Virus record (IMG/VR): IMGVR_UViG_3300006927_000082 | Location: 1-23,383 of that record | Source: a virus | Reading direction: 5' to 3' (one strand) | DNA length: 23,383 nucleotides | Shown here: piece after piece, positions 6,070 to 23,383 of the stretch | How positions within the stretch are numbered: position 1 is the stretch's first letter | Layout: the number at the start of each line of letters is the position of its first letter | Made by a program: the position numbers and the translations under genes | The notes under the pieces: model-generated | Told to the model about the DNA's origin: nothing | Database searches by the model: none | Seen by the model: only the letters and a program-made list of their open reading frames with translations

Positions 6070-8367
6070 ATGTCTTTCGAAAACGTCTCCACTCTTGCAA
6101 ACCAGGATCCGAATATATTAGTAGCGGAAACCATGGGTGCATCTGGTGTTATTGTAACAACCAGAATTGGAGTGAACGTTACCCCACAAGACAACGCAGT
6201 CATATCTATATCCGGTACGGATGATGTAGCGAAGATTCTCTCTATATCAGGAACTACTGGTGAGGCTCTCGCTGTGCTTAGTGGTGGACAGGTTACAATT
6301 GGTAGTATTGTTCCTGCTGATGCTACAACATACAAACTTCTAATTAACGGACAGGTCTGTGCTACTAGTGTAGACATTCCTGGTGTTTCACCATGGTGTG
6401 ATACTGGGTCTCAAGCTTGCATCGATGTCAAGGTGGGCATAGGGCTTGCTACAGAACCAGGAAATAACTTTGAAGTTTTAGGTTCTACAAGGTTATCGGA
6501 AGATCATTCAACCGTTGGCGAAATTGGTCAGATCAGGTTCTTTGGTTGTGATGATGGAAGTGCTCTGCAAACGTATGGTGGAATAGCGTATGAAGTAACC
6601 AACATGGCTGCAGGAACAGAGTGTGGCCAAATTCTATTTAAGGGTGCTGGTGGTGAAGTAGCTAGAATCACTGAAGCGGGCTGTCTTGGTATAAATGTGG
6701 CATCTCCAGCTGCTGCTATGGAAACTACAGGTGGTATTAGAATAGGTGCTGATAATGCAAATAACGTACTAGATGTTGTAGCTGGTTCAGCTCCATCTGG
6801 TGATTTGTATTGGGGTGATGATGCTGTAGTAGATGACTCCAACTTCTTGTCATATGGAATGGTTAGCATCTGTGCCCTTGGTGGGCTAACGGTTAATGGT
6901 GTGGGTGATTCTTTAGCCGAGACTGGCGATCAACCAGTTGCTCTTTGCAATCTATTGAATCCTGGCAATATTGGCACATATGCTGTCACATGTCTAACGG
7001 CTCAAGATGGTCTCTGCTCAAATGTTAGTATTGGTGGTGTCACTATAGTTAACTGTGATACAGGCTCTGCTCAAGCTATCATTAGATCGATATGTGCAGC
7101 AAGTGCCGGCAATATAACGGCGTCTGGGAACGCTGATGTATTGTGCTTTGGGGTAGCCAATGACTTTGCTGCGATTGCTTTGGGAACAGATGCCATGACA
7201 TATTCTCTTTGCCATTATATGGGAGCATGTTGTATTTGTGGTACCACAGCAGTTTGTTCGACAGGCTACATTTGCTCTGCTAATTTCTCAGCAGCGAATG
7301 GTTCGGGTGTATCACTATTAAAGTGTAATATGGCGGCCAACCCTTCCATCAGTTCGATTTGTATGCCTGTGGTTTTACTATGTGTTGGTTCGGCTTGCTG
7401 TTTCCCAATGTGTATTAAGTGCTCAGATGGATTTCACCCGCGAGCCTGCTGTCACGGTGCCTGGTTCCATTGGCGCGGCTGCGCCGGTGGCTGTCTTAGA
7501 GGTATGGTTAGATGTCACAGATGGTATGGTAGTGTTTCTAAGGCTTCCGGATCATTTGTAATTGACCATCCATTAGCTACAGACATTCCAAGCAAATATG
7601 ATGCGATGCATTTGGTCCATGCTTTCTCAGAAGGTCCCAAGCATGGAGTATTTTATGAAGGTAAGGGAATTACTGAGAACGGTATAGCAACAGTAAATCT
7701 ACCAGAATACTTTGAGTCTTTGGTACGAGAGGATGAAAGATATGTTCAGCTTACTGGATTAACGAACCCCGCTATAACAGTGAAGTCTGGTCCTATAAAT
7801 GGGGAGTTTGTTGTATGCATAGCTGAAGGTGATGATACTGAATTCTATTGGAGAGCTACTGCAGAAAGAAATGATAGTAACGTTATGAGTGATCGTTCAA
7901 CTGATGCTGAAGGCAGTTTAACCGTTGAAAGATGGAAACCATGGGTGGCAATTAAGGATCCAGAAGAAGTTATGAATATATTATCAACTAAGCAAGTAAG
8001 AGAATACATAGAGTACGAAGAAGACCGTGGTGCAGATGAGCCTAAGAAGTTCAATGCTAAGGCCAAGATAAGTAATATACGCGGTTTTAAGAGTACGAAG
8101 AAGGAGTCGCTTATCAGACTCGCGAGAAAAGGTAACCAGTCTCAACACGGTATGAGACTACCATCCGAAAGTATCTTCGTAGAGGATGGTACTGTATTAG
8201 CATTCAATATTAGACACAAGGTCAAACAGATAAGAGATCCAGAAGGTAACCTCATCACTCTACAAGAAATGAAAGATAAAGTGACTGATGGTTCTGCTGA
8301 AGTTCAAATATTTAAGCCATCTGTTGACCATGACACAATTTCATCCATGAGAGTAGTCGAATGGTAG
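6070..8367 (+). CDS. cysteine-rich tail fibre protein 1
   Basis: This 765-residue protein is the first of three paralogs. N-terminal repeats of tail-fibre type (…VGIGLATEPGNNFEVLG, 122-138; GCDDGSA, 159-165; GIRIGADNANNV, 222-233; LYWGD, 246-250) recur at nearly the same positions in the other two. Residues 381-482 hold 18 cysteines, several adjacent or CxC, and end in a Trp/His/Arg-rich stretch. A conserved domain then begins with GSFVIDHP (494-501) and includes HLVHAFSEGP, VFYEGK and EFYWRATAER; this domain type is common at the ends of T4-like marine phage fibres and baseplate proteins. The last 150 residues are a charged tail, different in each paralog. The start is ATG 6070 with SD AAGGAG. 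No signal or membrane segment; a receptor-binding role is inferred. Confidence 0.85.
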   Translation: MSFENVSTLANQDPNILVAETMGASGVIVTTRIGVNVTPQDNAVISISGTDDVAKILSISGTTGEALAVLSGGQVTIGSIVPADATTYKLLINGQVCATSVDIPGVSPWCDTGSQACIDVKVGIGLATEPGNNFEVLGSTRLSEDHSTVGEIGQIRFFGCDDGSALQTYGGIAYEVTNMAAGTECGQILFKGAGGEVARITEAGCLGINVASPAAAMETTGGIRIGADNANNVLDVVAGSAPSGDLYWGDDAVVDDSNFLSYGMVSICALGGLTVNGVGDSLAETGDQPVALCNLLNPGNIGTYAVTCLTAQDGLCSNVSIGGVTIVNCDTGSAQAIIRSICAASAGNITASGNADVLCFGVANDFAAIALGTDAMTYSLCHYMGACCICGTTAVCSTGYICSANFSAANGSGVSLLKCNMAANPSISSICMPVVLLCVGSACCFPMCIKCSDGFHPRACCHGAWFHWRGCAGGCLRGMVRCHRWYGSVSKASGSFVIDHPLATDIPSKYDAMHLVHAFSEGPKHGVFYEGKGITENGIATVNLPEYFESLVREDERYVQLTGLTNPAITVKSGPINGEFVVCIAEGDDTEFYWRATAERNDSNVMSDRSTDAEGSLTVERWKPWVAIKDPEEVMNILSTKQVREYIEYEEDRGADEPKKFNAKAKISNIRGFKSTKKESLIRLARKGNQSQHGMRLPSESIFVEDGTVLAFNIRHKVKQIRDPEGNLITLQEMKDKVTDGSAEVQIFKPSVDHDTISSMRVVEW

Positions 8368-10661
8368 ACATATCTAGATACAACATCAGACATAAAAGCA
8401 TATTAGGTGATATATTTGTGACAGATGTCACAGCAGGCCTTCCTAGCATAACTGGTGAGTTTATAGAGATTGGTGTTGATCGTGGTACTAAAATAGATTC
8501 ATTCGCTGCCACATCTCAATCTAATGCAGAATATCTACTCAGTGTAAGTGGTAGTAATGGCGACGTTCTTATGGTTATCACATCTGGCGGTCAGATGGCT
8601 ATTAATACCGACCCAATTGGTTCTTCAAAGCTATCAGTAAGTGGTGGTATGTGTATGGTAGCTTTAGCTGGAGCTGGAGGTAATGTATTCGCAGCTACTG
8701 GTGATGATATAAGTTATATAGGTGGTAATGCTGGTATAAGTGTAGCTTCACCACAGGATCAATTGGATATTGGTGGAGACGCTGCAGCTAGAACACACCA
8801 CTCCGGTGCCGGTGGTGTGAATGGTATATCAATAGCTGGTTGTGATGACGGTGGAGCAATAGAAGTATATGGTACTGTAAGTGGTATTGCTGACGCGGCC
8901 GCTGCTGGAGCAGAATGTGGTTCTGTAGTGTTCAGCGCTGCAGTAGCTGGTGCTGATGCTGAAGTTGCTAGAATAGATTATCAAGGCCAACTTGGTATAG
9001 GGACAATAACTCCCGGAGCCGCTCTAGATATTCAAGGTGCTCTCAAATTTGGAACGCTGGCCAATGCAGGTCACACTCTTAACACTTCGTCTGGTTCTAC
9101 TCCTACCTGTAATATATATTGGGGTGATAGGAGATTACTCTGTTCTTCAGAAGCACCTTCTACATTCATGTGCTGTATTGCAACCCCATGTGGACTTACG
9201 GGCGGCGGCAATGGCGGCGCTCTCACTATAGCTGCTGAAATTAAAGGCACAAATCTTGCTTCATATACAGTATGCTGTGTTATAGCTGGCACAGGTATAT
9301 CTGGGTCACAAGGCCCCGGCGCAGCAGCTACAATCGTGAATACGGATCGGGTTTCTAGTCAAAATATATATACCACATGGTGCGCGGCAGGTGTAGGTAG
9401 TGAGTCACCGGCAAGCAACAGTGATGTAATATGTTTTGCTAGAGGACTTGGTGTATGTATGACATTATCTGGCAATACTATTAGAGTATGTACATGTAAT
9501 CCATTGACTGTTTGTTGTGCTTGTGCGACGTGCTGTATTGGCGCTTGCAATTTGACCGCGCTTTGTTTCGTAGGTTGTGGTATTAATATCGCTGGTGCTT
9601 CATATAACTGTTACTGTACGTTCACAGGTAATTGTATTTTCATGTACTCTACCTACGCTACAGGCGGTGTTTGTGGATATTTCAAATTGTGTATGGGATC
9701 ATCGCAGTGTACCAACTGTGCAAGTCTTCAGTATTCGATTTGTGGTTGTAATGGTTGTACCATGCAGTGGCATGGCCGAGCAGTAGGATGTTCACGTCAT
9801 GATAACGGAAATTTCTGTTGTTTGATGAAGGGCAGTGGTTCATTCGTTATTAATCATCCATGCTGTGATAAGGAGAATCCAAACAAGTATAATGCTATGC
9901 ATTTGGTTCATGGCTTTGAAGAAGCGCCAGGCCTCACCGTCTTTTATGAAGGCAAAGCTGAGCTCTGCAATGGTATAGCGACAGTGAATATGCCATATTA
10001 TTTTGAATCTTTGGTTAGCTGTAAGCGAAATAGATATGTTCAGTTGACACCAATAAATGATTGGACTTCTATAACACCCGATAATCCAGGCTGTCCTGTA
10101 GAGAACGGTATATTGAATGTAAAGGGCGATAAGGATATTGAGTTCTATTGGAGAGTAAGCGGAGAACGCCAAGACGAAAGTGCTTTGGCAGGTGAAAATA
10201 AAGATGAAAATCATAATTATGATCCAGTTATGTGGAACAGTTGGTTAGGTATGAAAGAACCAGATGAATTCTTGAGCCTATTGACGAAGTCGGAGCTCAT
10301 AGAATGGATGAAGCAATATAAACATGATATCATATATGATACCACAAAGACTAAGAGCGAAATAATAGCTAAAATGGTAACTGATATGTCGCAAGATTTC
10401 GATGCTTTTGTGACATCGGGCCACGCCAATGATGATGATACTTTGACGTTGCTACATTGGGAATATACTAGAGAAATGTTTAATGGTGTACCTATTTATA
10501 ATGAGCATGGTGATGAAATCACATATGATGAATTAGTCGAATGTGTCAGAAAATGTGGTAAAGCAGGCCATGTCGTATTGAATAAGAAAAATAACAAGAG
10601 CAATAAAATACATAGAGCAGATTTCAAAAAAGATAAAGGGACAGCTAAACTAGATGGTTGA
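8361..10661 (+). CDS. cysteine-rich tail fibre protein 2
   Basis: ATG 8361 overlaps the end of fibre gene 1 (ATGGTAG), so translation is probably coupled. The 766-residue product shares the layout of its neighbour: GCDDGGA (160-166), GIGTITPGAALDIQG (212-226), IYWGD (252-256), then the richest cysteine block of the three, with 28 Cys between residues 341 and 502. Many are CC, CxC or CxxC. GSFVINHP (492-499) opens the conserved C-terminal domain (HLVHGFEEAP, VFYEGKAELCNGIATV, EFYWRVSGER). The final 150 residues hold two helical, lysine-rich stretches with a faint SAP-like look (TKSELIEWMKQY). Bacterial cytoplasmic cysteines would stay reduced, so disulfides or metal ions could form only late. 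Confidence 0.85.
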   Translation: MVDISRYNIRHKSILGDIFVTDVTAGLPSITGEFIEIGVDRGTKIDSFAATSQSNAEYLLSVSGSNGDVLMVITSGGQMAINTDPIGSSKLSVSGGMCMVALAGAGGNVFAATGDDISYIGGNAGISVASPQDQLDIGGDAAARTHHSGAGGVNGISIAGCDDGGAIEVYGTVSGIADAAAAGAECGSVVFSAAVAGADAEVARIDYQGQLGIGTITPGAALDIQGALKFGTLANAGHTLNTSSGSTPTCNIYWGDRRLLCSSEAPSTFMCCIATPCGLTGGGNGGALTIAAEIKGTNLASYTVCCVIAGTGISGSQGPGAAATIVNTDRVSSQNIYTTWCAAGVGSESPASNSDVICFARGLGVCMTLSGNTIRVCTCNPLTVCCACATCCIGACNLTALCFVGCGINIAGASYNCYCTFTGNCIFMYSTYATGGVCGYFKLCMGSSQCTNCASLQYSICGCNGCTMQWHGRAVGCSRHDNGNFCCLMKGSGSFVINHPCCDKENPNKYNAMHLVHGFEEAPGLTVFYEGKAELCNGIATVNMPYYFESLVSCKRNRYVQLTPINDWTSITPDNPGCPVENGILNVKGDKDIEFYWRVSGERQDESALAGENKDENHNYDPVMWNSWLGMKEPDEFLSLLTKSELIEWMKQYKHDIIYDTTKTKSEIIAKMVTDMSQDFDAFVTSGHANDDDTLTLLHWEYTREMFNGVPIYNEHGDEITYDELVECVRKCGKAGHVVLNKKNNKSNKIHRADFKKDKGTAKLDG

Positions 10662-12804
10662 TGTCACACTAAGATCCGGCGAAGCTATAAAGACCAAGAT
10701 AGTAGATAACGTTGTCTTAGAATTTGGACCGACGTCTGCTGCTACCTGGGCAGCTTTTGGTGTAGGTTCGCATGTAGCTGATGGAACCTTATCATTACTT
10801 TCGGTATCTGGTAATTCTGATAATACTAGGACCATGTCACTCAGTGGTAATGTAGGGCAGCAATTCGCTTTCTATCCAGAAGGCAAAGTTACAATTGGTG
10901 AGGCAGAACCTGCTGCCGGTATTGACTTTAATATAGAAGGTACGATGTCTGGTGATTCTGTAGATTTGCAGATCGGCCTATGGATTGATTGTTCTACATG
11001 GGTCCATCACACTGCCGGTTGTGTAGGTTTTGGTACTCAGGCTCCTCAGTCTAATGCTGATATCAGTGGTGATCTTAGAATTTCTACATGTCACTCAGGT
11101 TCTGCAGAACTTGGATCATACAAATTTATTGGTTGTGATGACGCTGGTGCTGTAGTGACATATGGTGCTCTTAAAGGCACAGCACAGGTTGTAACAGGTG
11201 GATCTGAGATTGGCGGTGTAGTCATACAGACAATCCAAGGTGGCGCACTTACAGACAGCGTAACGATTACAGACTGTGGTGTAGGTATTGGAACCACATG
11301 TCCATCTCAGAATCTAGATGTTCAAGGTGGAATAAGATTTGGAGCAGCAGGTGCAAATAATATCATTCACACATCTGCTGCTGCTGGGGCAGCAGGCACA
11401 GATCTATATTGGGGTGATCAGATACTTCTTGACGCTGGTAATGTTTCTTCATACGCTATTGGTTCAATAGTAGCTGGTGATGGAACTTGCGTGAGCAACA
11501 TAGGAGGAGCATATACTATTTGTGCCACAATTGGGCCCGGCGATGTTGTTACATGCGCTATGTGTTGTATTATATCATCTACTGGTATAGGTGGCGGTGG
11601 TGGTCCTGGTAATGTCGTTTTATGTAACACATCCAGAGGCTCGAGTCAAAACATATACAAGACAGTTTGTGTAGCAGGTAGTGGATCTTGTACGTTTACA
11701 GGGAATTGTGGTGTACTTCACTTTAGTAGTGCAGATGCAAACATGTGCGTCTGTGCGTCGTCTGATGTCGTAATGATCAGAAACTGCTGCGCCCATCATG
11801 CCGCTACTTTCTGTGCTGCATGTTGCATATTGTCACCTATTATTTGCGTAACAGGCACGATGACTGGTAATGGTTTGCAACTTACCGGTATCACAGATAC
11901 TTGTTCTACGTCTGGTGGTTGTTATATATTTGTCAAATGCTTCGGAACGTACGCATCGAAAGTCGTGCCTGACGGGCGCTTGCCGAGATCGACGACCGAC
12001 TCCATATTTGATATATATGATGGTGACGGCGCGATCATGTTTCAGGGCCGGGCACATTGCGACCCAAACCAGTGTGGATGGGGGATAAACTACCACTGGT
12101 GTAATGTATGTTTTACAGGCTCACTCTGTAAGCAATCCGGCTCATTCTTGATCAACCACCCATGCTGTAGTAAGGAAAATCCAAATAAGTTCAATACCAA
12201 GCAGCTTATCCACTCGATCGAAGAAGGCCCAAAACACGGTGTCTTTTACGAAGGGAAAGCAAAGCTAGAGAATGGTATAGCAACTGTAGAACTACCAGGG
12301 TATTTTCAGAAACTTGTACATAAGAAAGAATTGCCACTAATTCAATTAACTAGTTATGGAGAGTGGGCTCCTATCTTTGCAGGTGATCCTGAAGAGCCAG
12401 TCAACTGTGGCGTGATCACAGTCAAGACGGTACCATGTGGAAAGCAAGACGCTGAATTCTATTGGAGGGTAAGTGCTACAAGAGGTGACAGCCATATCAT
12501 GGATCATGCTAGTAATACAGATGAGCATGGTCTATTGATAACAGATATGTGGAAAAATCTAGGTGATATAGAGAACTTAGAAGAAGAATTGGCACCATTA
12601 ACCCTCGATGAAGTAAAGGACTTTGCATATCACAATTACTATACATCTAGAATGAAGAAGTATAGTAGCAGAGTTGAAGGCACCGAACCGATCATACTTG
12701 CATCTGTATTATATGCAATTGATCAGGCACAGTTTAAACAAGACGCGATCGATATTATATCGGCTTATGAGGATGATGGTTCTGTATTGTCTATAGTAAA
12801 CTAA
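10654..12804 (+). CDS. cysteine-rich tail fibre protein 3
   Basis: ATG 10654 overlaps the end of fibre gene 2 (ATGGTTGA). The 716-residue protein repeats the shared plan: GCDDAGA (160-166), VGIGTTCPSQNLDVQGGIRFG (210-230), LYWGD (251-255), a glycine run near 311-318, a cysteine-rich region (about 279-492) and GSFLINHP (496-503) with HSIEEGPKHGVFYEGK. Residues 430-470 (…DGRLPRSTTD…) are encoded by a GC-richer patch and contain few cysteines, unlike the same place in fibre 2. The C-terminal tail (LTLDEVKDFAYHNYY…) is shorter and unlike those of paralogs 1 and 2. It may form hetero-oligomeric fibres with them, or the three may be alternative adhesins. Confidence 0.85.
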   Translation: MVDVTLRSGEAIKTKIVDNVVLEFGPTSAATWAAFGVGSHVADGTLSLLSVSGNSDNTRTMSLSGNVGQQFAFYPEGKVTIGEAEPAAGIDFNIEGTMSGDSVDLQIGLWIDCSTWVHHTAGCVGFGTQAPQSNADISGDLRISTCHSGSAELGSYKFIGCDDAGAVVTYGALKGTAQVVTGGSEIGGVVIQTIQGGALTDSVTITDCGVGIGTTCPSQNLDVQGGIRFGAAGANNIIHTSAAAGAAGTDLYWGDQILLDAGNVSSYAIGSIVAGDGTCVSNIGGAYTICATIGPGDVVTCAMCCIISSTGIGGGGGPGNVVLCNTSRGSSQNIYKTVCVAGSGSCTFTGNCGVLHFSSADANMCVCASSDVVMIRNCCAHHAATFCAACCILSPIICVTGTMTGNGLQLTGITDTCSTSGGCYIFVKCFGTYASKVVPDGRLPRSTTDSIFDIYDGDGAIMFQGRAHCDPNQCGWGINYHWCNVCFTGSLCKQSGSFLINHPCCSKENPNKFNTKQLIHSIEEGPKHGVFYEGKAKLENGIATVELPGYFQKLVHKKELPLIQLTSYGEWAPIFAGDPEEPVNCGVITVKTVPCGKQDAEFYWRVSATRGDSHIMDHASNTDEHGLLITDMWKNLGDIENLEEELAPLTLDEVKDFAYHNYYTSRMKKYSSRVEGTEPIILASVLYAIDQAQFKQDAIDIISAYEDDGSVLSIVN

Positions 12805-12815
12805 ATGGGGTGTAA

Positions 12816-13952
12816 ATGAATCAGATTCAAATTGGTGAAGATAGCAAATGTTACATATTGATGCTGGCTGGCGGCCTTGGTGCTAGAATCATACAAACGG
12901 TTTTTATTAGGTCTCTTATCAGTAAGAGAAAGACCGATAGAAATAGTTGGCCCATCATAGTTGTAGATAATAGCCTTATTGGCTTTATGGTTTCAGAGGC
13001 CCTCAATGGTCATAACATTATGGGAACACAAGTACCAGAACCTCATCAACAATGGCCTCAAGATCCAGGAATCATGAAGGATGAAAAATTAGGCCAGCCA
13101 GAGCACCCCATTTTCTTAGATTCATGGCGCAAGAATTTCCAGCAATATGCTACTGGATCTGGTTCAGTCAATAGACTCATCAATAATAATTGGAAGAGAT
13201 CATATCAGATTGAATATGGTCATTCACTCAGCAAACTGATCCATGGCAATAAGTTGAAGGATAGCCCTAAGTCCTTTATAGGTAACCATTATGGAAAGGT
13301 TATGGATCTGAAGTATGACGGTGGAGTTCCCCTACTCAAGCGAACTCAAACAAACGCAGACCTACAGCAGCATCTAGATAAGCAAGATAAACCATTCGTG
13401 CTTGTTCATATGGGAGTAGATCGTAACCCACATGAATTTATGAGCGGTGTGAATTATAGAGTGCACAAAGTATGGTCCCTTGTAAGGTGGGCACAACTCG
13501 CAGAAAAGCTCAAGCACAAGTATAACTTCATCCAGGTTCATGCTAATCAGTATAATCCAGAAATTCCTGGATTCCAGACAGTGAAGGTCGATAACCTCAA
13601 TCCTGTTCTTCAAATACTTGAGCATCCGAAATGCGCATTCTATATGTCTATAGATAATTACCTTCCACACCTTGCAGCCAGTTTAAAGAAACCTGGAATT
13701 GTCTTATGGGGTAGTGTAAGCCCATATGTATGGGGATGGAAACACAACATCAATATCTGGAATAAGACATCTTGTCCTGATATAGCTTGTTGGAGACCTG
13801 GTCCATTTGATACAGATGAGAATGGTAAGATTTGGATATGTGATCATTATAGTTGCATGAAATCGATAGAGCTAGATCAAGTACTAGCTGAAGTAGGGAA
13901 AATGGAAAAGCTTATTGGTGAAGAGCCAGAGCAAAGGATGATATCTCTATAA
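12816..13952 (+). CDS. GT9-family (heptosyltransferase-like) glycosyltransferase
   Basis: The 378-residue protein starts 12 nt after fibre gene 3. It opens with a Rossmann-type GGLGARIIQTVFIRSL segment (about residues 19-34). It has the GT9 donor-site pattern YMSIDNYLPHLAASLKKPGIVLWG (around 276-299), which matches the usual 'D-x-x-x-x-H-x-A-a-x-x-x-x-p-x-v-x-l-w-G' block of ADP-heptose:LPS heptosyltransferases. After it come four cysteines, C320, C325, C342 and C347 (Cx4C-x16-Cx4C). A cysteine-bound iron 'finger' near the C-terminus is known in the TibC/AAH protein-heptosyltransferase branch of GT9-like enzymes, so a protein acceptor such as the adjacent fibres is a reasonable guess. LPS remains the alternative acceptor. 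Sugar donor and acceptor are not proven by the sequence. Confidence 0.75.
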   Translation: MNQIQIGEDSKCYILMLAGGLGARIIQTVFIRSLISKRKTDRNSWPIIVVDNSLIGFMVSEALNGHNIMGTQVPEPHQQWPQDPGIMKDEKLGQPEHPIFLDSWRKNFQQYATGSGSVNRLINNNWKRSYQIEYGHSLSKLIHGNKLKDSPKSFIGNHYGKVMDLKYDGGVPLLKRTQTNADLQQHLDKQDKPFVLVHMGVDRNPHEFMSGVNYRVHKVWSLVRWAQLAEKLKHKYNFIQVHANQYNPEIPGFQTVKVDNLNPVLQILEHPKCAFYMSIDNYLPHLAASLKKPGIVLWGSVSPYVWGWKHNINIWNKTSCPDIACWRPGPFDTDENGKIWICDHYSCMKSIELDQVLAEVGKMEKLIGEEPEQRMISL

Positions 13953-13966
13953 TAGGGTAGGTGTAA

Positions 13967-15760
13967 ATGTACGTACTAGGAATTAGTTGTGGACATGATG
14001 GTTCTGTCGCTCTCGTTAAAGATGGAAAGCTCAAAGCTTTCATAGCTACCGAGAGGCTCAATAGAGTCAAGAAGTCCAGAGGTGTCACCAAGGCAGGAAT
14101 CAAATACGTCTTGGACAAGGAAGGCATCAAACTCAAAGATGTCTCGATTGCTGCTGTTGTAAACTGGTTTTGGGATAGAGGCTCTGATAATATAGAGCTT
14201 TGGGATAAGACGGAGGATGACTTCTCTATCATAAAAGAACCTAGATCTGAAGAATATTTGTATGACGATTTTGTAGCATTCCATAATGATCCAAATATAG
14301 TAGCTCAAGGTCCTTATACTCTCAAGATAGGCAATCAATCGATGCCCTGTCTTCATGTAGACCATCACTTCGCACATTGCTCGTCCGCATATTATCTGTC
14401 ATCATTTGACAGAGCTTTGTGTGTGTCTGTAGATTTCTCAGACGGTATGGGTGCTAATCATTCTGCTTATTATTTTGATGATAAAATGCACATGTTCAGA
14501 AACTTAAGGAAGGGTGGGGACTTTGCTGTTGGTAGTTTCTATGGTCAGATATGTGACTATCTTGGATTCTATCCTTCGCTGACTGATGCTGGTAAAGTTA
14601 TGGCTCTGGCAGCCTATGGTAAAGTGAATAAGAAGGTGGTAGATGGGTTATCGTGGCCTGATGTTGTTCAGATGGGTGATATATTCCATGGTGATCAATA
14701 CAGGCATCTCCTCCTAAGATCTGGTGTCTCTAACATGCCAAATAGGACAGCATTCTTCCCTCAGTTGGAGGGTGAAGGTGGTATCGCCGATCCAGCCTGG
14801 AGAGATCCGGAGAAGTGGAAGAGTAAAGAAACTAAGGACATGGCAGCCAACGCTCAGCATATCTTAGAAACTAGCATCCACAATCTCATAGATAAGTTCC
14901 ATACAGAAATGTCTTCTGTTACAGAGAACTTGTGTTTGGCAGGTGGAACGATGTTGAATGTAGTTTCCAATGGCAAGTTACTCAATACATTCGAGAATAT
15001 CTTTATACCTCCAGCTCCAGGTGACGATGGCACATCAATCGGAGCAGCTATGTTCCTATGGGATCAGATAGAGAAGGATAGCAAGGGAGCACTTAATACA
15101 AGAACAGAACCACCTAAAAGACATATTCATACAGTCAACGAAGTGTTTGAAGGTGGGAAGACATATTCAGTTTCAGATATCAAGGATGCTATAATTGATG
15201 CAGAGAATGAAGGCTATGAAGTTTCAAAGTATACAAAGAAGTTACTATACAAAGCTGTTGCCAAGTTTCTCTCAGAAGGCAAGATAGTAGCTTGGTTCCA
15301 AAATGGTTCTGAGATAGGCCCAAGAGCTTTGGGTCATAGGTCTATATTGGCTGATCCAAGAGATAAGAATATGAAGGATAAACTCAATAAACTCGTTAAA
15401 CATAGAGAAGAGTTCAGACCCTTTGCTCCAGTCATATTAGATGAGCATGTAAATGATTGGTTTGATTTAGACAGATCCTCTCCATATATGCTATTTTCTG
15501 TTGATGCATTGAAGTCTGGTGAGATTCCTTCGGCTGTCCATGTTGATGGTTCAGCTAGAGTTCAGACGGTAGCTGAACCACACGTGTTGCACAGATTGCT
15601 TACTGCTTGGTATGATCTTACTGATGTTCCGATTCTCATCAATACATCATTTAATGTAAAGGGTGAGCCTATTGTAGAATCACCCGAAGATGCAGTGGCT
15701 TGCTTTCTTGGTACAGAAATTGATGTGTTGGTTATGCATGACTATGTGATAGTGAAATAA
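13967..15760 (+). CDS. O-carbamoyltransferase, NodU/CmcH/TobZ family, intact
   Basis: The 597-residue protein has the full two-domain plan. The Kae1/ASKHA-like domain begins MYVLGISCGHDGSVALV. It carries the HxxxH iron-site motif in DHHFAH (H133/H137), DAGKVMALAAYG (207-218), LCLAGGTMLNVV (322-333) and APGDDGTSIGAA (350-361). The YrdC-like C-terminal domain has GSEIGPRALGHRSILADPR (447-465), EEFRPFAP and NTSFNVKGEPIVE near the end. Such enzymes form carbamoyl-AMP from carbamoyl phosphate and ATP and pass the carbamoyl group to a hydroxyl, commonly of a sugar. Position directly after the glycosyltransferase suggests a glycan substrate. The stop overlaps the next ATG by one base. Confidence 0.9.
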   Translation: MYVLGISCGHDGSVALVKDGKLKAFIATERLNRVKKSRGVTKAGIKYVLDKEGIKLKDVSIAAVVNWFWDRGSDNIELWDKTEDDFSIIKEPRSEEYLYDDFVAFHNDPNIVAQGPYTLKIGNQSMPCLHVDHHFAHCSSAYYLSSFDRALCVSVDFSDGMGANHSAYYFDDKMHMFRNLRKGGDFAVGSFYGQICDYLGFYPSLTDAGKVMALAAYGKVNKKVVDGLSWPDVVQMGDIFHGDQYRHLLLRSGVSNMPNRTAFFPQLEGEGGIADPAWRDPEKWKSKETKDMAANAQHILETSIHNLIDKFHTEMSSVTENLCLAGGTMLNVVSNGKLLNTFENIFIPPAPGDDGTSIGAAMFLWDQIEKDSKGALNTRTEPPKRHIHTVNEVFEGGKTYSVSDIKDAIIDAENEGYEVSKYTKKLLYKAVAKFLSEGKIVAWFQNGSEIGPRALGHRSILADPRDKNMKDKLNKLVKHREEFRPFAPVILDEHVNDWFDLDRSSPYMLFSVDALKSGEIPSAVHVDGSARVQTVAEPHVLHRLLTAWYDLTDVPILINTSFNVKGEPIVESPEDAVACFLGTEIDVLVMHDYVIVK

Positions 15761-16908
15761 TGAAAGTCATTGGATTATATGGAGCTATAGGCTGGGATCT
15801 TTCCGAGGGTTGGATTCATGGCGGAGGAGCATCTTTGTGGATTGATGGTGAGCACTGTTGTTCGATAACCGAAGAGAGATTGACAAGGATCAAATTTGAT
15901 GGTTCTGAACCAATGGAGTCTATAAAGTATGTTCTTAACGAAGGTGATCTATCTAGATCTGATATAGACATTGTAGCATACTCAGGTTGTGCCCACTCGT
16001 TCAGATTGAAAGCGGCGATCAGTCGCAGGCTTACTAGATTATTTCCAAATGCTAAAGTCGTAGGTATAGATCATCATAGGGCTCATGCCTGTGCAGCATT
16101 CTATTCATCACCATTTGAAAAAGCGTCGGTACTTTCGTATGACGGTGCAGGATCTACGTTTCCTACAGCATTGAAGGGCGGGTTGGTTATGGATGATGAC
16201 GGATATGGCCCAGCGTATTTGTATGAGACAGGTTTGTATGCTCTTGGTGATAAGAGCACTGGGAAAATGTCCACAATATTCCATGCGAAACAAGGATTAA
16301 ATCTAGGGGTCTTCTCATTAAATGCGGGACAGGTATATAATACCTACTCCTGTTACATTTATAGAAGAATGTGCTCTGATGTGGCAGATAAGATAATGGC
16401 AGAAAACCCATACCTCTTAATGGAGATAGCGCCTGGTAAAGTAATGGGGTTGGCTGGTTACGGCGATCATACAAAGGTGGATCAACCATCTCCATTCCAT
16501 GTGACTGATGACGTATTCTACTTTCCTGAGATACTGTCTGTTGTTGAAGACATGGATGTGCTAAACCCATACAGCCCTCGTGATATAGCAGCTTGGCTTC
16601 AATACTCTTTTGAAGAGGGTATCTGTGAATGGCTAGAAACTATACCTGGTTCTCTGAAGGAGGACAATCTATGCATAGCAGGTGGTTGTGGCTTAAATGT
16701 TATAGTGAACAGGAAAATCATAGACAGAGGTATTTTCAAAGACTTGTATCTGTTCCCTGCAGCCAATGACCATGGGCTACCTTTCGGTGCGGCATGTGCT
16801 GTGATGGCAGATGAAGGCATAGATGTTACACCTCCAGAAAATGTAGCATTCTTAGGTAAACTGTATACTAACAAAGATGTAGAGGAAGCCATTGAATATC
16901 TCCTATAG
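15760..16908 (+). CDS. second carbamoyltransferase, N-terminal (Kae1-like) half
   Basis: The 382-residue frame covers only the first domain of the NodU/CmcH family. It starts MKVIGLYGAIGWDLSEGWIHGGGASLWIDGE in two readable pieces: the family's usual N-terminal 'G-x-x-H-D-s-a' is altered, and an insertion precedes GGGASLW. It keeps DHHRAHA (H105/H109), GKVMGLAGYGD, LCIAGGCGLNVIVN and NDHGLPFGAA. It ends at TAG 16906-16908 in the linker between domains, where intact members continue. The missing YrdC-like half is encoded in the +1 frame from 16892 with a 17-nt overlap. The two halves could be separate subunits, a frameshifted gene, or joined by recoding. Confidence 0.85.
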   Translation: MKVIGLYGAIGWDLSEGWIHGGGASLWIDGEHCCSITEERLTRIKFDGSEPMESIKYVLNEGDLSRSDIDIVAYSGCAHSFRLKAAISRRLTRLFPNAKVVGIDHHRAHACAAFYSSPFEKASVLSYDGAGSTFPTALKGGLVMDDDGYGPAYLYETGLYALGDKSTGKMSTIFHAKQGLNLGVFSLNAGQVYNTYSCYIYRRMCSDVADKIMAENPYLLMEIAPGKVMGLAGYGDHTKVDQPSPFHVTDDVFYFPEILSVVEDMDVLNPYSPRDIAAWLQYSFEEGICEWLETIPGSLKEDNLCIAGGCGLNVIVNRKIIDRGIFKDLYLFPAANDHGLPFGAACAVMADEGIDVTPPENVAFLGKLYTNKDVEEAIEYLL

Positions 16909-17455
16909 TAAATTAGATCTACTACCCATGATAGATATTGTGGCTTCTGATTTGGCTGATGATAAAATCGTTGGTTGGTTTCAAGGTAGATCAGAGTTCG
17001 GTCCCAGAGCCCTTGGCAATAGATCCATATTGGCTGATCCAAGAAATGATTGGGTAAAGGACCATCTTAACGATGAAGTGAAACATAGGGAATGGTGGAG
17101 ACCATATGCTCCTATTGTAATGGAGGAATATGTAAGTGATTGGTTTGATACAAATAGACCCTCACCGCATATGATGTTTTCTGCTATCTCTACACAACCT
17201 GATAAGGTTCCGGGCATTACGCACGAGGATGGAACTTCTAGATATCAGACTGTGAATAAGGAACAGAATGAAAGAGTATGGTTATTGCTAGAATCATTCA
17301 GAGTGTTAACAGACGTTCCTATGTTACTGAATACTTCTTTCAATGATAATGGAGAACCTATAGTAGAAACTCCTGAAGATGCACTTAGTACTTTTTTGAA
17401 TTTGAACATAGACGTATTAGTGATCGGTAGGTATTATTTTAACAAGGAGGAATAG
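16892..17455 (+). CDS. second carbamoyltransferase, C-terminal (YrdC-like) half
   Basis: The frame carries the second domain: KIVGWFQGRSEFGPRALGN then RSILADPR, EWWRPYAPIVMEEYV, YQTVN and NTSFNDNGEPIVETPEDAL. All the signature residues of a working C-terminal domain seen in the intact neighbour are kept, so this half is under constraint. The start could be TTG 16892, preceded by AGAGGAAG (16881-16888) at a short 3-nt spacing, or ATG 16928. The frame is +1 relative to the N-terminal half. It ends 2 bases before the GTG of the next gene, whose SD lies within its last codons. Confidence 0.8.
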   Translation: MNISYSKLDLLPMIDIVASDLADDKIVGWFQGRSEFGPRALGNRSILADPRNDWVKDHLNDEVKHREWWRPYAPIVMEEYVSDWFDTNRPSPHMMFSAISTQPDKVPGITHEDGTSRYQTVNKEQNERVWLLLESFRVLTDVPMLLNTSFNDNGEPIVETPEDALSTFLNLNIDVLVIGRYYFNKEE

Positions 17456-17456
17456 C

Positions 17457-17780
17457 GTGGTAGAAGAAAACGAATATGTAGAAAAACTAAAATCAAAGCA
17501 GCATGATCAAGAAAATACTCTGAACCAACTTTCTGCTTCAATTGGTCAGTTGGAAGTTCAGCTTGAACAAGCAAGAACAAATCTTCTTAGAAATCAAGGT
17601 GCTCTTCAAATGTTGAACATCATTATCAAGGAAGAATCACCTGAAGAAGAAGAGACCAAGGAGGGTGAAGATGAAACGCCAACACCTCCTAAGAAAAAGA
17701 AGCGACCTGCCAAAAAGGCGGCCAAAAAGAAAGTAGCATCAGCTGAAGAGGAAGAGGAAGAAGAAGACGAGGAACTATAA
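17457..17780 (+). CDS. charged coiled-coil protein with basic and acidic tails
   Basis: GTG 17457 follows AAGGAGG (17444-17450) at an ideal 6 nt. The 107-residue product has three parts: a probable coiled coil rich in Gln/Leu/Glu (about residues 5-58), a Lys/Ala/Pro-rich basic segment (PPKKKKRPAKKAAKKK, about 77-92) and a nearly pure Glu/Asp tail (about 95-106). It directly abuts the next gene (TAAATG). The basic segment recalls histone-H1-like tails, but low complexity makes any homology claim weak. It could be a scaffold or chaperone for the sugar enzymes or fibres; this is only inferred from its place. Confidence 0.7.
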   Translation: MVEENEYVEKLKSKQHDQENTLNQLSASIGQLEVQLEQARTNLLRNQGALQMLNIIIKEESPEEEETKEGEDETPTPPKKKKRPAKKAAKKKVASAEEEEEEEDEEL

Positions 17781-18689
17781 ATGAATGTCTTCATCTTAGG
17801 TGAAGCCACCATAGACAGGAATACCTTCCTTGATAAAGGGAAGGCCAAACTTGACACTGCTTATGGTGTGCCAGTGTATAGGGAGAGGTATTCTGTTGAT
17901 AGGCCAGGATCGGCAGCCAATGTAGCTCATCAGTTGGCTGTTATGTCTATGATGGATGCTTCTGAGGAGCGTTACAAAACACATCTGTTTTCAGCGTATA
18001 GCTATGGTTTAGAGCGACTTATTCACTCACAATGCACGCAAAACGCTATAGAGGTGTTATCACCCATGCAGATCGTTAAGGAGCGTTATTTCACCGAAGG
18101 GATCTGTGTCCTTAGGATGGATCGAGGACCTGAAGAAGTAGATTCATACAATTCATTTTGTATAGATCTAGATAGGTTGGTCGAAGAAGGGGACATCATA
18201 GTTTTGTCTGATTATGATAGAGGCTTTATCGATGAACATCTGTTTGGTATGGCTCTTCACTTGCAGGATAGCCGCAATGTAAAAGTCATCGTCGACGCAA
18301 AGAAGATAAAGCCTAATATGAAGGGTGCTTTCATTTTGAAGTGCAATGAAGATACCGCTCTAGATTATGCTGTTGATCATGTAGAGCTTGGCTTTGCCAC
18401 ACCTATGGATCAGATCATACATAATCTCGATGTAGACAATGTGATTGTTACTAGTGAAAGGGGTAGCTGGAGGAAAGCTAAAGGTGAAGGGGTTATTAAA
18501 GAGACTGCACATGCAGTTCGTGATCTTGATCTTGTAGATACCTGCGGCGCTGGGGATATGTTTATTGTAGGATTGGTAAGAGCACTTATTATGGGTGCCG
18601 ATATTACCTCGGCTGTTGGTGAAGGTCATTATCTAGCAGACATATCAACTACACATTTCGGAACCTATGAATTGGAACAAGAACAGTAA
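17781..18689 (+). CDS. PfkB-family sugar kinase, HldE/RfaE kinase-domain-like
   Basis: The 302-residue protein has the ribokinase/PfkB layout: VFILGEATIDRN at the start, RPGSAANVAHQLA (41-53, the GGAANVA substrate loop), KERYFTEGICVLRMD (100-114, like the RFLSRNQQLLRLD loop of HldE), VLSDYDRGFI (141-150), VIVDAKKIK (169-177), VTSERG and the signature DTCGAGDMF (253-261) with catalytic Asp D259. It best fits D-glycero-beta-D-manno-heptose-7-phosphate kinase. The C-terminal nucleotidyltransferase domain of bifunctional HldE is absent, so host enzymes would have to complete ADP-heptose. It starts right after the previous stop and ends the enzyme island at a terminator. Confidence 0.85.
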   Translation: MNVFILGEATIDRNTFLDKGKAKLDTAYGVPVYRERYSVDRPGSAANVAHQLAVMSMMDASEERYKTHLFSAYSYGLERLIHSQCTQNAIEVLSPMQIVKERYFTEGICVLRMDRGPEEVDSYNSFCIDLDRLVEEGDIIVLSDYDRGFIDEHLFGMALHLQDSRNVKVIVDAKKIKPNMKGAFILKCNEDTALDYAVDHVELGFATPMDQIIHNLDVDNVIVTSERGSWRKAKGEGVIKETAHAVRDLDLVDTCGAGDMFIVGLVRALIMGADITSAVGEGHYLADISTTHFGTYELEQEQ

Positions 18690-18913: not shown

Positions 18914-21259
18914 ATGGCTAAAGTCGCCGTATCTCCGGGTGTGTACACCAAGGAGATCGATGATTCATTTCAGCCGGCTGCAGGAGGAGGTGCCATTGGC
19001 GCTGCCCTAATCGGACAGACCAAGAAAGGCCCAGCCTTCTCACCAACTATTGTCAGTAGCTTTGGCGAGTTTAAGGAAAGATTTGGTGGAACTGATCCAA
19101 GTCTGTATATGCCTTATGCTGCAAAAGCTTACTTGAGAAACGCAAGTACGTTGACTGTCACTAGGATCTTGGGTAGAGCAACTGCAGAATCCGGTAATTC
19201 GATTTTGCTAGCCTTCCCAACTACTGGTTCACTGTCAGCGGACGCAGCTACTCTGAGCGCAACCAACACAGTCCTTGGTGTGCTTAAGTTTAGGGGCGAT
19301 TTGGAGGAAGCACTACTTAGTGGTTCACCTTCAAACTTTACGCTTGCAATTCCTGGCAAGGGTGTTACTGCAACCAATCTTTCTATGACTGAAAGCAGCA
19401 ATAACTACATCGGCAAGATGCTTGGTACAGATCCTGTCGAATCCAAGGCCGGTGATACACTCACAGCCGTTTATGTAGACGCTGTCTACGACTACAAGGT
19501 TGGTGATATCACAGGTACCATTAGTGGTGCTGCTGCATTATCAGAGATGGCAAGCGCTACAGCAGAGTTTACCAACGTTACAGGTGGGTTCTCACCCGCT
19601 CAGTCAACCATGGTCGTATCACAAAACTATGGTGGAACTGTTCATAACCTGTTTGAGGTATTCACGCTGGCTGATGGAAATGGAGCAGAAAGAGAAATTA
19701 AGATTGGTATTACTCAGGTAGACCTTACAACCACAGCAGCTCCTGAATTTACGGTTGTTGTAAGAGCCTTTGGAGATAATGATCTAGATCCGGTAGTACT
19801 AGAGCAATTCACGGTTAACCTCTCACCATCTTCTAAGCAATTCATTGGAAGAGTAATTGGTGACCGTGAACCAGCCTATGACTTCACACAGACACCTCCA
19901 GAACTATTGTTCAACGGTGACTTTCCTAACAGATCCAAGTTTATTAGGGTCAAGGTTCAGGATGGTTTCCCAGCAGACGCTAGACCATCTGGATTCAAGG
20001 GTGTTCCTAAGTTCGACGGTGGTCCTGGTGTTCCTGACCTTCCAACGAAGCAGGATCATAGGAACCCAGCAGGGGCTGCAGTTGATGCCAACGTCTTTGC
20101 TGGTACTGACTTCTCAATTGGTGGTGTTGATGATAGGATCAAGAAGACAACGACAAGCGCTTCTGGTTCATCTTCCGCTGACCCAGGTATGCTGTTCGTA
20201 TCTTCTACTGCTGATTATTCTGGATCTGCTTCCCTCGCTGCCACTTACTTGATCATCGATCAGGTAGGAAGCAACAGTGGTAACTTTAGCTCGACCAATA
20301 AGCTTAGGTTTAGCTTCCCAGTATATGGTGGTTGGGATGGATACGATCCACGTACAGACAAGCTAACCAGTCTCAATGATGGTACTGTCTCGGCAGACTT
20401 TGTTCAGGCTATCGATATTCTTAGCAATGATACAGAGTATGACTTTAACTTGATCGCAGTTCCTGGTGTTCACTCATCCGGCGCTGGTCAGGTTCCTGAT
20501 AGAGTTATCGATATGGTTACCACTCGTGGTGATGCATTCTATATCTTGGATATTTCGGACGCTACAACAACTGGTAGTGGTCTCGCTCTATCAATTGCAG
20601 CTGCACAGTCAGAGGTTGATAAGTATGATACCAACTACGCAGCTACATATTACCCATGGGTACGTGTTAATGACGTAGATAATGACAGAATCGTTTGGGT
20701 ACCACCTTCTGTCGAAGTACTATCCGCATATGCTTTCAATGATAGAGTAGCTCAGCCTTGGTGGGCACCAGCCGGCTTTAATAGAGGTGGTGTAGAAAAC
20801 GTCATCGAAGCAAGACGTAGACTCACTCAAGGTCAGAGAGATGATCTTATCAGCAAAAACGTTAACCCAATCGCTACATTCCCAGGTCAGGGAATTGCAG
20901 TCTGGGGTCAGGATACACTTCAGAAGAAGGCTTCACTCCTATCTAAGGTGAACGTTAGAAGGATGCTTCTTGAGGTCCGTAAGACAATCGCTGGATTCTC
21001 AAGGCTCTTCGTATTCGAACCTAACAACCCATCGGTTCGTAGAAGGCTGGAGACGATGATCAATAACTACCTAACAGAAGTTCAGGCAGCTAATGGTCTA
21101 ACAGAATTCAGAGCTACCTTGGATGAATCGACGACTACACCTGATCTCATCGATAGAAATATGATGAAGGGTGTTATCGCCTTGAAGCCAACCGCCGCAG
21201 CAGAAATCATTTTGCTCGACTTTAGCGTGAATTCAAGTGGTGCTGTATTCGATGAATAA
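18914..21259 (+). CDS. gp18: contractile tail sheath protein
   Basis: The 781-residue product has the classic sheath start MAKVAVSPGVYTKEID, then GGGAIGAALIGQTKKGPA and FGGTDPSLYMPYAAKAYL (about residues 24-80). The conserved C-terminal fold includes GIAVWGQDTLQ, VNVRRMLLEVRKTI, FEPNN then RRRLETMINNYL, and GVIALKPTAAAEIILLDF. The N- and C-terminal arms mesh neighbouring subunits in the contractile tube. It is longer than T4 gp18 (659), as in other relatives with extra surface domains in the middle (about 110-420). Codons are cleaner and C-richer than in the fibre genes, as expected for an abundant virion protein. The start is supported by GGAG at 18903-18906. Confidence 0.95.
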   Translation: MAKVAVSPGVYTKEIDDSFQPAAGGGAIGAALIGQTKKGPAFSPTIVSSFGEFKERFGGTDPSLYMPYAAKAYLRNASTLTVTRILGRATAESGNSILLAFPTTGSLSADAATLSATNTVLGVLKFRGDLEEALLSGSPSNFTLAIPGKGVTATNLSMTESSNNYIGKMLGTDPVESKAGDTLTAVYVDAVYDYKVGDITGTISGAAALSEMASATAEFTNVTGGFSPAQSTMVVSQNYGGTVHNLFEVFTLADGNGAEREIKIGITQVDLTTTAAPEFTVVVRAFGDNDLDPVVLEQFTVNLSPSSKQFIGRVIGDREPAYDFTQTPPELLFNGDFPNRSKFIRVKVQDGFPADARPSGFKGVPKFDGGPGVPDLPTKQDHRNPAGAAVDANVFAGTDFSIGGVDDRIKKTTTSASGSSSADPGMLFVSSTADYSGSASLAATYLIIDQVGSNSGNFSSTNKLRFSFPVYGGWDGYDPRTDKLTSLNDGTVSADFVQAIDILSNDTEYDFNLIAVPGVHSSGAGQVPDRVIDMVTTRGDAFYILDISDATTTGSGLALSIAAAQSEVDKYDTNYAATYYPWVRVNDVDNDRIVWVPPSVEVLSAYAFNDRVAQPWWAPAGFNRGGVENVIEARRRLTQGQRDDLISKNVNPIATFPGQGIAVWGQDTLQKKASLLSKVNVRRMLLEVRKTIAGFSRLFVFEPNNPSVRRRLETMINNYLTEVQAANGLTEFRATLDESTTTPDLIDRNMMKGVIALKPTAAAEIILLDFSVNSSGAVFDE

Positions 21260-21352: not shown

Positions 21353-21847
21353 ATGGCACAGCCCTTTGAAGTCAATACAATGTTGGCTGATGCGTACGAA
21401 CCGAAGCGAGCTAATAGATGGCTCTTTCAGTTTGATGACGACACAATTCCAACATTCATTGCGCGTGTTGCTTCAAAACCTAACCTGACTGTTGAACCTG
21501 TCTCGATCGACTTCATGAACACGAAGAGGTATATCGCTGGCAAGTTTGAGTGGGGTACAATCACTCTCGGACTATATGATCCGATCGCTCCTTCAGCATC
21601 ACAAAAAGTGATGGAGTGGGTAAGACTTTCTTATGAAAACCTATCCGGCCGTGCTGGATATGCTGCTTTCTATAAGAAGAACTTCTCATTGCTTTCCCTT
21701 GATCCTGTCGGTGCTCCTGTTGAACAATGGGATATTCAGAGTGCTTGGGTAACAGAAGCTACATTTGGCGATCTGGATATGGCATCTTCCGAGTTGCAGC
21801 AGATCGACATCACAATTAGAATGGACCGTTGCGTATTGAGGTATTAA
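21353..21847 (+). CDS. gp19: tail tube protein
   Basis: At 164 residues it matches T4 gp19 (163). It starts with MAQPFEVNTMLADAYEPKRANRWLF in outline. It has the tube-fold segments FIARVASKPNLTVEPVSIDFMNT (about 36-58), RYIAGKFEWGTITLGLYDPI (59-78) and a C-terminal ELQQIDITIRMDRCVLRY. It polymerises as hexameric rings inside the sheath. SD TGGAG (21340-21344) lies 8 nt before the ATG. It follows the sheath gene as in nearly all contractile phages. In T4 the portal gene would come next; here a gp26-like gene follows. Confidence 0.95.
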   Translation: MAQPFEVNTMLADAYEPKRANRWLFQFDDDTIPTFIARVASKPNLTVEPVSIDFMNTKRYIAGKFEWGTITLGLYDPIAPSASQKVMEWVRLSYENLSGRAGYAAFYKKNFSLLSLDPVGAPVEQWDIQSAWVTEATFGDLDMASSELQQIDITIRMDRCVLRY

Positions 21848-21865: not shown

Positions 21866-22726
21866 ATGGTAGATGAAAAGAAGAAAGATGTAGTAGTTGA
21901 TTTCACATCAGCAGGTGGACAAGCAGAAGCACCAGAAGATTTAGCGAGAAAGGTTGCAGCCGAACCCAGAGATGAAGTACCTACAGATCTGGTAGCGCTA
22001 CCAACAAGAGGATTGCTATACGGCAATGATAACCCCTTGTTCAATACCAATAGTGTTGAAATTCGTCATATGACTGCAGCAGAGGAGGATATTCTCACGT
22101 CAAGGAGCCTTCTCCGTTCAGGAGAGGCGATTGATATGGTATTGAAGAACTGCTTAGTAAATAAGCTTCTTGATCCTAAGATGCTTTATGGTGGTGATAA
22201 AAATGCAATCATGATCTCGCTTCGAGTTAGTGGTTATGGTCCTGAGTATCCAATTGATGTAGTCTGTCCAGAATGTAACGAACAGTCTAGATATCAGTTT
22301 GATCTTTCAGCTCTTGAAGTTAGAGAACTTGAACTCGAACCCGTTGAACCGGGTAAGAATGAATTTGAGTTTGAACTACCTACATCTAAATCGGTAGTAC
22401 ATTTCAAGTATCTTACGTCCAAAGAAGAAAAGGATATGAAGGATGAACTTGAAGCTATTAAGAAAAGACAGGGTTCCCCTATTGACAAGACTGTAACTAC
22501 CACTCTCAAGAAACAAGTCGTTTCAATCGACGGTGATATCACTCCAGCAACCATTTATAAGCTCATTGATAGAATGCATGTTAGAGATTCTAGAGAGCTT
22601 AGGAAGTTCATTGAAAAGAATGAACCTGATGTCATTATGAAACAGCAATTTGCATGTAACTCTTGTGGAGCGGCGAATGAGGTGGACGTTCCTATAACGC
22701 CCGAATTTTTTTGGCCTGACATCTGA
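21866..22726 (+). CDS. gp26: gp26-like baseplate hub / tail assembly protein, zinc-motif
   Basis: The 286-residue protein has the family pattern LPTRGLLYG (45-53), EIRHMTAAEEDILTSRSLL (65-83), ISLRVSGYG (117-125), then two CxxC pairs, C134/C137 and C264/C267, which can form one zinc site. It resembles the gp26-like baseplate hub subunits of T4-like marine phages. AAGGAG (21850-21855) precedes ATG 21866. The gene ends EFFWPDI-stop, with a run of seven T at 22706-22712 fifteen bases before the stop codon ends. A +1 slip there would extend the protein through a second frame (22713-22931), so this gene may make two products, like lambda G/GT-type tail assembly chaperones. Confidence 0.8.
   Translation: MVDEKKKDVVVDFTSAGGQAEAPEDLARKVAAEPRDEVPTDLVALPTRGLLYGNDNPLFNTNSVEIRHMTAAEEDILTSRSLLRSGEAIDMVLKNCLVNKLLDPKMLYGGDKNAIMISLRVSGYGPEYPIDVVCPECNEQSRYQFDLSALEVRELELEPVEPGKNEFEFELPTSKSVVHFKYLTSKEEKDMKDELEAIKKRQGSPIDKTVTTTLKKQVVSIDGDITPATIYKLIDRMHVRDSRELRKFIEKNEPDVIMKQQFACNSCGAANEVDVPITPEFFWPDI
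22706..22712 (+). promoter_or_regulatory. seven-T slippery site for +1 frameshifting
   Basis: In the gp26 frame the run reads TTT TTT TGG. After a one-base forward slip the P-site codon is again TTT, so tRNA-Phe can re-pair perfectly. The stop of the zero frame follows four codons later. Recoding is inferred; a plain sequencing or mutation error in the homopolymer is the alternative. Confidence 0.55.
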
Positions 22727-22931
22727 GAGTAAGTTCACTTACGTATATGAAGAAATCTTCAATTGCGTCTATCACGGCAAGGTTGGAACATTTTGGGAAG
22801 TATACAGAATGCCAGTATGGTTGAGGAAATGGTGGATTCAAAGACTCAATAAAGAAACCGAAGCAAAAACGCCAGCACCCACACCAGGAAATCAAAGAAT
22901 GCCAGGGATGCCTCCAATGCCCGGTATGTAA
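22713..22931 (+). CDS. probable +1 frameshift extension of the gp26-like protein
   Basis: This frame has no ATG, GTG or TTG before ATG 22809, yet the codons before that point look strongly coding (LTSESKFTYVYEEIF, then VYHGKVGTFWEVYRMP). A +1 slip of the tRNA on TTT 22709-22711 to TTT 22710-22712 would fuse …PEFF to GLTSES…, giving a 354-residue product. The segment VYRMPVWLRKWWIQRLNKE looks like the conserved end of tail/baseplate assembly proteins, and the tail is Pro/Met-rich (…MPGMPPMPGM). Start at ATG 22809 would yield only 40 residues and lose the first half of the conserved part. Confidence 0.65.
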   Translation, partial: GLTSESKFTYVYEEIFNCVYHGKVGTFWEVYRMPVWLRKWWIQRLNKETEAKTPAPTPGNQRMPGMPPMPGM

Positions 22932-23002: not shown

Positions 23003-23248
23003 ATGAAACAATTTATTGAGCGTCAAGGCGATCGCTATATGATCAGTGAAGGTATTTTCAAGTTCATAAGTGGTGTTTTATCAGGTAAAGTAGATATCGC
23101 TGCTACAGATGATAAAAAGCTTAGTGCTAAAGGCAAGGAGCTTAAGATCGCTATCAAAAATATCGAATCGGAAGTAGAAAAGGCCGCACGCAAAGCAGGC
23201 CTGTCCGTTGAAGATTATATCCAGAAACAATACGGCTTCGATCTATAG
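23003..23248 (+). CDS. small unrecognised protein, 81 residues
   Basis: AAGGAGG (22990-22996) lies 6 nt before ATG 23003. The product (MKQFIERQGDRYMISEG…) is mainly helical, with a lysine-rich centre (DDKKLSAKGKELKIAIKN) and a C-terminal VEDYIQKQYGFDL. No motif is recognised. Its place after gp26-like and ahead of another tail-region gene suggests a small baseplate or tail assembly protein, by context only. Confidence 0.75.
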   Translation: MKQFIERQGDRYMISEGIFKFISGVLSGKVDIAATDDKKLSAKGKELKIAIKNIESEVEKAARKAGLSVEDYIQKQYGFDL

Positions 23249-23256
23249 AATAATAC

Positions 23257-23383
23257 ATGGCAAAATCTGATGTAAGATCCGTAGCTCAAGAAGTAGCCCA
23301 GCAGGAATCTTCCCTGTTTGGGAAGGGAGCGGGCGCTTCGATTGCTGATCAGTGGAGAATCATGGCTGAAAAGCAAGCAGATG
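23257..23383 (+). CDS. 5' end of an unidentified gene (partial)
   Basis: ATG 23257 opens a frame that stays open to the window edge: MAKSDVRSVAQEVAQQESSL then FGKGAGASIADQWRIMAEKQ. It starts 9 nt after the previous stop with no clear SD, so it may be coupled to the gene before. The helical, Gln/Ala-rich start would suit a tape-measure or baseplate protein, but 42 residues are not enough to tell. Confidence 0.6.
   Translation, partial: MAKSDVRSVAQEVAQQESSLFGKGAGASIADQWRIMAEKQAD

Follow-up and report, generated by a model that had tools for sequence, protein, structure and literature searches.

Tail assembly chaperones made by frameshifting are well known, and cases in the +1 direction exist. 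In lambda (gpG/gpGT) and P2 (gpE/E+E′), a gene between the tail tube and tape measure genes yields a short product and a C-terminally extended long product through a −1 shift. For the haloarchaeal myovirus HSTV-2, the tail assembly chaperone shift was reported as very likely +1 (PMC5009743), and the training set of PRFect, mainly chaperone-based, holds 350 forward cases (PMC10885494). T4 is listed as the exception to the widely conserved tail-chaperone frameshift (PMC5009743). Two papers cite Vladimirov, Gautam and Davidson 2022 (Virology 566:9) on T4-like tail assembly chaperones. One states that some T4-like phages do not frameshift but encode a short chaperone gene and a longer fusion gene (PMC10885494); the other attributes to the 2022 study −1 signals of the poly-T kind in chaperone genes of T4-like phages (PMC12846349). 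Judging from these citing papers, part of the family-wide picture given below has probably been published there already. In the literature, the main text of Vladimirov 2022 aside, we found no description of the +1 class, of its site UUU UUU UGG C or of the change in direction reported here.

We analyzed a marine phage contig of 23,383 nucleotides (IMG/VR record IMGVR_UViG_3300006927_000082, hereafter the window), in which one gene would give rise to both T4-type chaperone forms through a +1 shift, whereas T4 uses two full genes and no shift. The comparison with T4 rests on family: gp26 and gp51 belong with the window protein to PF12322 and phrog_150, gp26 corresponding to the short form and gp51 to the long form with the same C-terminal extension. 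The window resembles lambda and P2 in design and position, though their shift is −1, and HSTV-2 and the PRFect forward sites in direction, the +1 shift in those chaperone genes being likewise a prediction.

A gp26-family gene with a second open frame

The tail genes and the elements of the putative shift are as follows:

18914–21259, + strand: tail sheath protein (phrog_23, E=5.3e-70; PF04984, E=2.6e-14)
21353–21847, + strand: tail tube protein, gp19-like, adjoining the chaperone gene on its 5′ side (phrog_4542, E=5.3e-27; PF06841, E=6.5e-7)
21866–22726, + strand: short-form tail assembly chaperone gene, zero frame, gp26-like (profile matches to PF12322 and phrog_150)
22706–22715, + strand: predicted shift site TTT TTT TGG C, with post-shift codon GGC (sequence; 95 relatives)
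22713–22931, + strand: +1-frame C-terminal extension, 72 amino acids plus stop, equivalent of the gp51 C-terminus (open frame, omega, profile match)
22724–22726, + strand: zero-frame stop TGA, three codons past TGG (sequence)
23003–23248, + strand: small ORF of 81 amino acids separating the chaperone gene from the tape measure gene (not confidently assigned to any Pfam or PHROG family)
23257–23383, + strand: first part of a probable tape measure gene that runs off the contig (from the identical contig L002 and related phages)

The 286-residue zero-frame protein matched Pfam T4_baseplate (PF12322; E=3.3e-19, 69.9 bits against a cut-off of 24.5) and PHROG 'baseplate hub' (phrog_150; E=3.8e-23), both of which are also matched by T4 gp26 and T4 gp51. 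T4 gp26 ends with the Pfam domain, at ...LKEFFELL, and gp51 runs about 50 residues past it. These shared families, together with a profile match between the extension and the gp51 C-terminus, assign the predicted short form to the gp26 type and the long form to the gp51 type. We argue the homology from Pfam, PHROG and extension profiles because hhalign comparison of the whole long form with single T4 sequences gave only short, weak matches. Among solved structures, no convincing relative was found by sequence and a PDB fold search returned no significant match; baseplate hub and hub assembly proteins of the T4-like kind are among the top-ranking viral folds.

The order sheath, tube, chaperone, small ORF, long ORF is that of a tail assembly chaperone locus. 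In L002 the probable tape measure protein reaches at least 822 amino acids and carries a tape-measure-like VGEAGPEMIVPF motif; it had no match in PHROG, and in related isolates the equivalent ORF bears a tape measure annotation. The original prediction had likened the arrangement to chaperone frameshifts but placed it in a T4-like baseplate gene. The design stands and the baseplate assignment does not: located between the tail tube and tape measure genes, this gene would by its position itself encode a tail assembly chaperone, as gp26 and gp51 are, rather than being a baseplate gene that copies the design. We infer the chaperone role from gp26/gp51 homology, synteny and the 2022 study as known through its citations.

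Other parts of the window also drew our attention. Three consecutive long cysteine-rich ORFs (6070–12804; 765, 766 and 716 amino acids) resemble tail fibre paralogs that have a C-terminal part in common, GSF.I.HP...H..EGP..GVFYEGK; a scan of the first of them gave no Pfam match. Between these fibre-like genes and the sheath gene lies a sugar-modification-like cassette (12816–18689) with a weak glycosyltransferase family 9 match, a PfkB-type kinase and two carbamoyltransferases, Nol-like by PHROG. The second carbamoyltransferase (15760–17455) is split into overlapping ORFs for the N-terminal (15760–16908) and C-terminal (16892–17455) domains, in a +1 relation near CTC CTA TAG TAA. Two further assemblies have the same sequence over this region, as does a third where covered, so one faulty assembly does not account for the split; it could reflect two genes, gene decay or a further recoding site.

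The zero frame of the chaperone gene closes with GAA TTT TTT TGG CCT GAC ATC TGA, the T7 run occupying 22706–22712. The +1 frame is open from 22698 to a TAA at 22929–22931 and reads GLTSESKFTYVYEEIF...PMPGM up to that stop; from 22713 it reads GLTSESKFTYVYEEIFNCVYHGKVGTFWEVYRMPVWLRKWWIQRLNKETEAKTPAPTPGNQRMPGMPPMPGM. From 22698 onward, in the window and in the identical sequence of L002, no ATG, GTG or TTG occurs in this frame 5′ of the ATG at 22809, which encodes the Met of 'MP', well inside the conserved domain at its middle. The sequence thus agrees with the original prediction, in which the +1 frame stays open between the T7 run and 22931 and lacks a usable start before 22809. In the third (−1) frame a stop follows the site after a few codons, an arrangement other than that of a canonical −1 shift.

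Conservation of the site and of the extension

To place the site in its family we used a collection of about 160 loci, gathered in three scans by gp26 similarity to the window. Its own profile located the extension in 158 loci: 152 have it in +1, 3 in −1 and 3 in frame 0 after a TAG, proportions that apply to the gp26-similar clade rather than to the whole family, in a set that includes a few duplicate contigs. The site is conserved in about 150 related loci at protein identities as low as roughly 30–40%, and the nearest other relatives, about 40–50% identical, carry TTTTTTTGGCC or a close variant with an open +1 frame. Cultured isolates with the site include Flavobacterium phage immuto, Microcystis phage Mel-JY01 and Rhodothermus phage RM378. 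The T7 site and the whole gene are, moreover, identical in four other IMG/VR assemblies (L002–L005). Given this identity and the retention of the site among relatives and isolates, the T7 run is, on sequence grounds, neither chance nor an assembly error.

Across 95 non-redundant +1 loci the site is nearly invariant, as UUU UUU UGG C with occasional UUU CUU UGG C. Codon 1 is TTT in 91 of 95, against 70.2 ± 4.0 expected from Phe codons elsewhere in the same genes (760 TTT, 238 TTC). Codon 2 is TTT in 88 loci, CTT in 6 and TTC in 1; when it encodes Phe it is TTT in 88 of 89 (65.8 ± 3.9 expected), and when it encodes Leu it is CTT every time. The TTT excess is above 5 s.d. at each codon, although these counts share ancestry and are descriptive rather than strict probabilities. 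Codon 3 is TGG in 91/95, and the post-shift codon is GGC in 88 and GGT in 3, giving Gly in 91/95. The base 3′ of the slip codon is T or C without exception, so that the set as a whole reads UUU_Y or CUU_U; the homopolymer that the original prediction expected in homologs is kept or replaced by this equivalent. The re-pairing P-site codon is therefore conserved beyond the need of the protein. Past the site, the zero-frame tail is short and variable, its stop falling 5–8 codons beyond the start of the site. Start codons are lacking downstream in many loci, as had also been anticipated: before the domain core, 39 of the 95 loci have no ATG, GTG or TTG, and 62 have no ATG.

Selection on the extension was measured past the zero-frame stop, in pairs whose extensions differ at 3–25% of nucleotides. 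Differences at +1-frame codon positions 1, 2 and 3 numbered 381, 233 and 1048, with a median omega of about 0.12, which shows that purifying selection acts on the extension as a protein. In profile–profile comparison, the +1 extension matched the −1-frame extensions of other phages plus the T4 gp51 C-terminus (E=4.3e-11, probability 97%). What had been proposed as a second domain fused to the gp26-like protein is thus a conserved protein segment, which this match refines to the C-terminal extension of T4 gp51. The extension of one relative gave a weak match to phrog_634 (E=0.029). Modelled alone, the extension forms three predicted helices (pLDDT 77.6); the gp26 part, modelled separately, reached a pLDDT of 86.5.

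Proposed mechanism and competing explanations

Taken together, the conserved site, the conserved open frame and the selected extension support the proposed fusion by a +1 shift, which is very probably a real programmed frameshift. We hold it highly probable that one gene supplies both T4-type chaperone forms by a +1 slip at UUU UUU UGG C. Most ribosomes would stop at the TGA and release the short, gp26-like form. In a fraction, peptidyl-tRNA-Phe on UUU would move to the overlapping UUU and re-pair there, with UGG still waiting in the A site; GGC would be read next, yielding the long, gp51-like form, which has an additional helical domain at its C-terminus. The lambda gpG/gpGT pair suggests roles for the two parts: the common portion would coat the tape measure protein, and the extension would bring in tail tube subunits. 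A modest shift rate, sufficient for a minor product, would be the likely design. We infer the ribosomal nature of the slippage, its efficiency and the exact codon.

Peptidyl-tRNA slipping +1 onto an overlapping codon is also how prfB (CUU UGA C), Ty1 (CUU AGG C) and bacterial UUU_Ynn sites shift. UUU_Ynn is especially +1-prone in bacteria, and in Ty1, whose post-shift codon is GGC as in the window, abundant tRNA for that codon promotes the shift (PMC5009743); UUU UUU UGG C and UUU CUU UGG C are consistent with both rules. The CTT found at codon 2 in 6/95 loci is the shift codon of prfB. The waiting codon differs, however, being a stop or a rare Arg codon in prfB and Ty1 but a sense codon, UGG (Trp), here, kept in 91/95; nor did we find an upstream Shine-Dalgarno-like stimulator, such stretches occurring in only 22/95 loci and not being conserved. 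Downstream RNA structure in the 95 loci was no stronger than in control stretches (mean z −0.40 versus −0.45), and none was conserved.

Several other explanations would also account for a long form, and the variants of the site bear on most of them. Polymerase stutter at the T7 run could generate mRNAs one base shorter or two bases longer that encode the long form, and a homopolymer of 7 is indeed present in the window and most relatives. Fifteen loci, however, have TTTCTTTGG and four have TTCTTTTGG, runs that are short for polymerase slippage, and Firmicute phages have TTCTTTCG and similar short runs; the short-run variants still obey the tRNA re-pairing rule UUU_Y / CUU_U, and −1 relatives carry standard ribosomal heptamers, all of which makes transcriptional slippage very improbable. 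A −2 ribosomal shift, reportedly suggested for phage Mu, would reach the same final frame, and seven T permit perfect re-pairing of tRNA-Phe with a product one Phe longer. We consider it very improbable, because it pairs badly at TTT CTT TGG and TTC TTT TGG, where +1 pairs well, and because conservation tracks the base 3′ of the slip codon.

Two separate genes, with a stand-alone extension started within the +1 frame, would fit the cyanophage records in which gp51 is annotated separately, and in three relatives (L039, L045 and L072) the downstream ORF does have its own ATG. This reading nevertheless seems highly improbable for the window, which itself belongs with the loci lacking any start before the domain core; it also leaves the conserved slip site unexplained, and in T4 the extension is joined covalently to the rest of gp51. 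Some sequencing technologies do make errors in homopolymers, but a sequencing or assembly error, or a decayed gene, has a probability close to nil here: the run is identical in four other assemblies, about 150 loci as well as complete isolate genomes show the same frame relation, and the extension is under purifying selection. A +1 ribosomal slip thus remains our preferred reading.

One gene family, several routes

In the cyanophages, KVP40, phiM12, HTVC008M, phiW-14, RaK2 and Atu_ph07, the same gene has a homologous extension at the same Phe-Phe position, but in the −1 frame at U UUU UUY rather than in +1 at UUU (U/C)UU UGG C. The −1-frame extension follows U UUU UUC or U UUU UUU in S-PM2, P-SSM2, HTVC008M, phiM12, KVP40 and phiW-14, and U UUU UUC in RaK2 and Atu_ph07. 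In the first six, it coincides with small genes annotated as 'gp51' or hypothetical. Five stand-alone 'gp51' annotations (NC_006883 7217–7390, NC_006820 151190–151363, NC_020484 16366–16503, NC_027204 75330–75491 and NC_005083 186612–186779) look like −1-frame gp26 extensions and probably need correction. Weaker +1 cases, with extensions not matched to the profile, are RM378, with TTT TTT TGG A and an open +1 extension, and the Firmicute phages SP-15, LIS04 and GXN1, in which the +1 frame is open past Phe-Phe.

Within the gp26-similar clade, L089, L111 and L130 have the extension in −1, at the standard −1 heptamer A AAU UUC. L039 (3780–4130), L045 and L072 form a small derived group, the only homologs observed in which the extension has a start codon of its own. 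Their chaperone ORF terminates at a TAG, past which the extension follows in the same frame; either restart or stop readthrough is possible there. In a tree of 116 proteins the frame labels need five changes. The −1 trio forms a fully supported clade, nested inside the +1 group, that has switched to −1 at A AAU UUC. T4 gp26 and gp51 group together, adjoining the −1 phages; the tree is a quick one, with long branches for T4, RM378 and RaK2 and unsure deep joins.

The putative routes at this Phe-Phe pair are +1 at UUU (U/C)UU UGG C, −1 at U UUU UUY, −1 at A AAU UUC, a TAG followed by restart or readthrough, and duplication of the whole gene in T4. We lean towards a history in which one family has kept the same two products while recoding changed repeatedly at a single Phe-Phe pair, UUU UUU UGG C being a dedicated, widespread +1 cassette and the two T4 genes descending from a frameshifting ancestor.

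Annotation pipelines miss the predicted shift, and isolate genomes list the extension separately or only in part. In many T4-like relatives, the putative recoding site lies exactly at the junction where T4 splits the job between gp26 and gp51, and gene duplication would explain why T4 is an exception to the chaperone frameshift. With its +1, −1, split and duplicated forms, this one gene offers a natural test set for how recoding is exchanged under selection for a fixed product.
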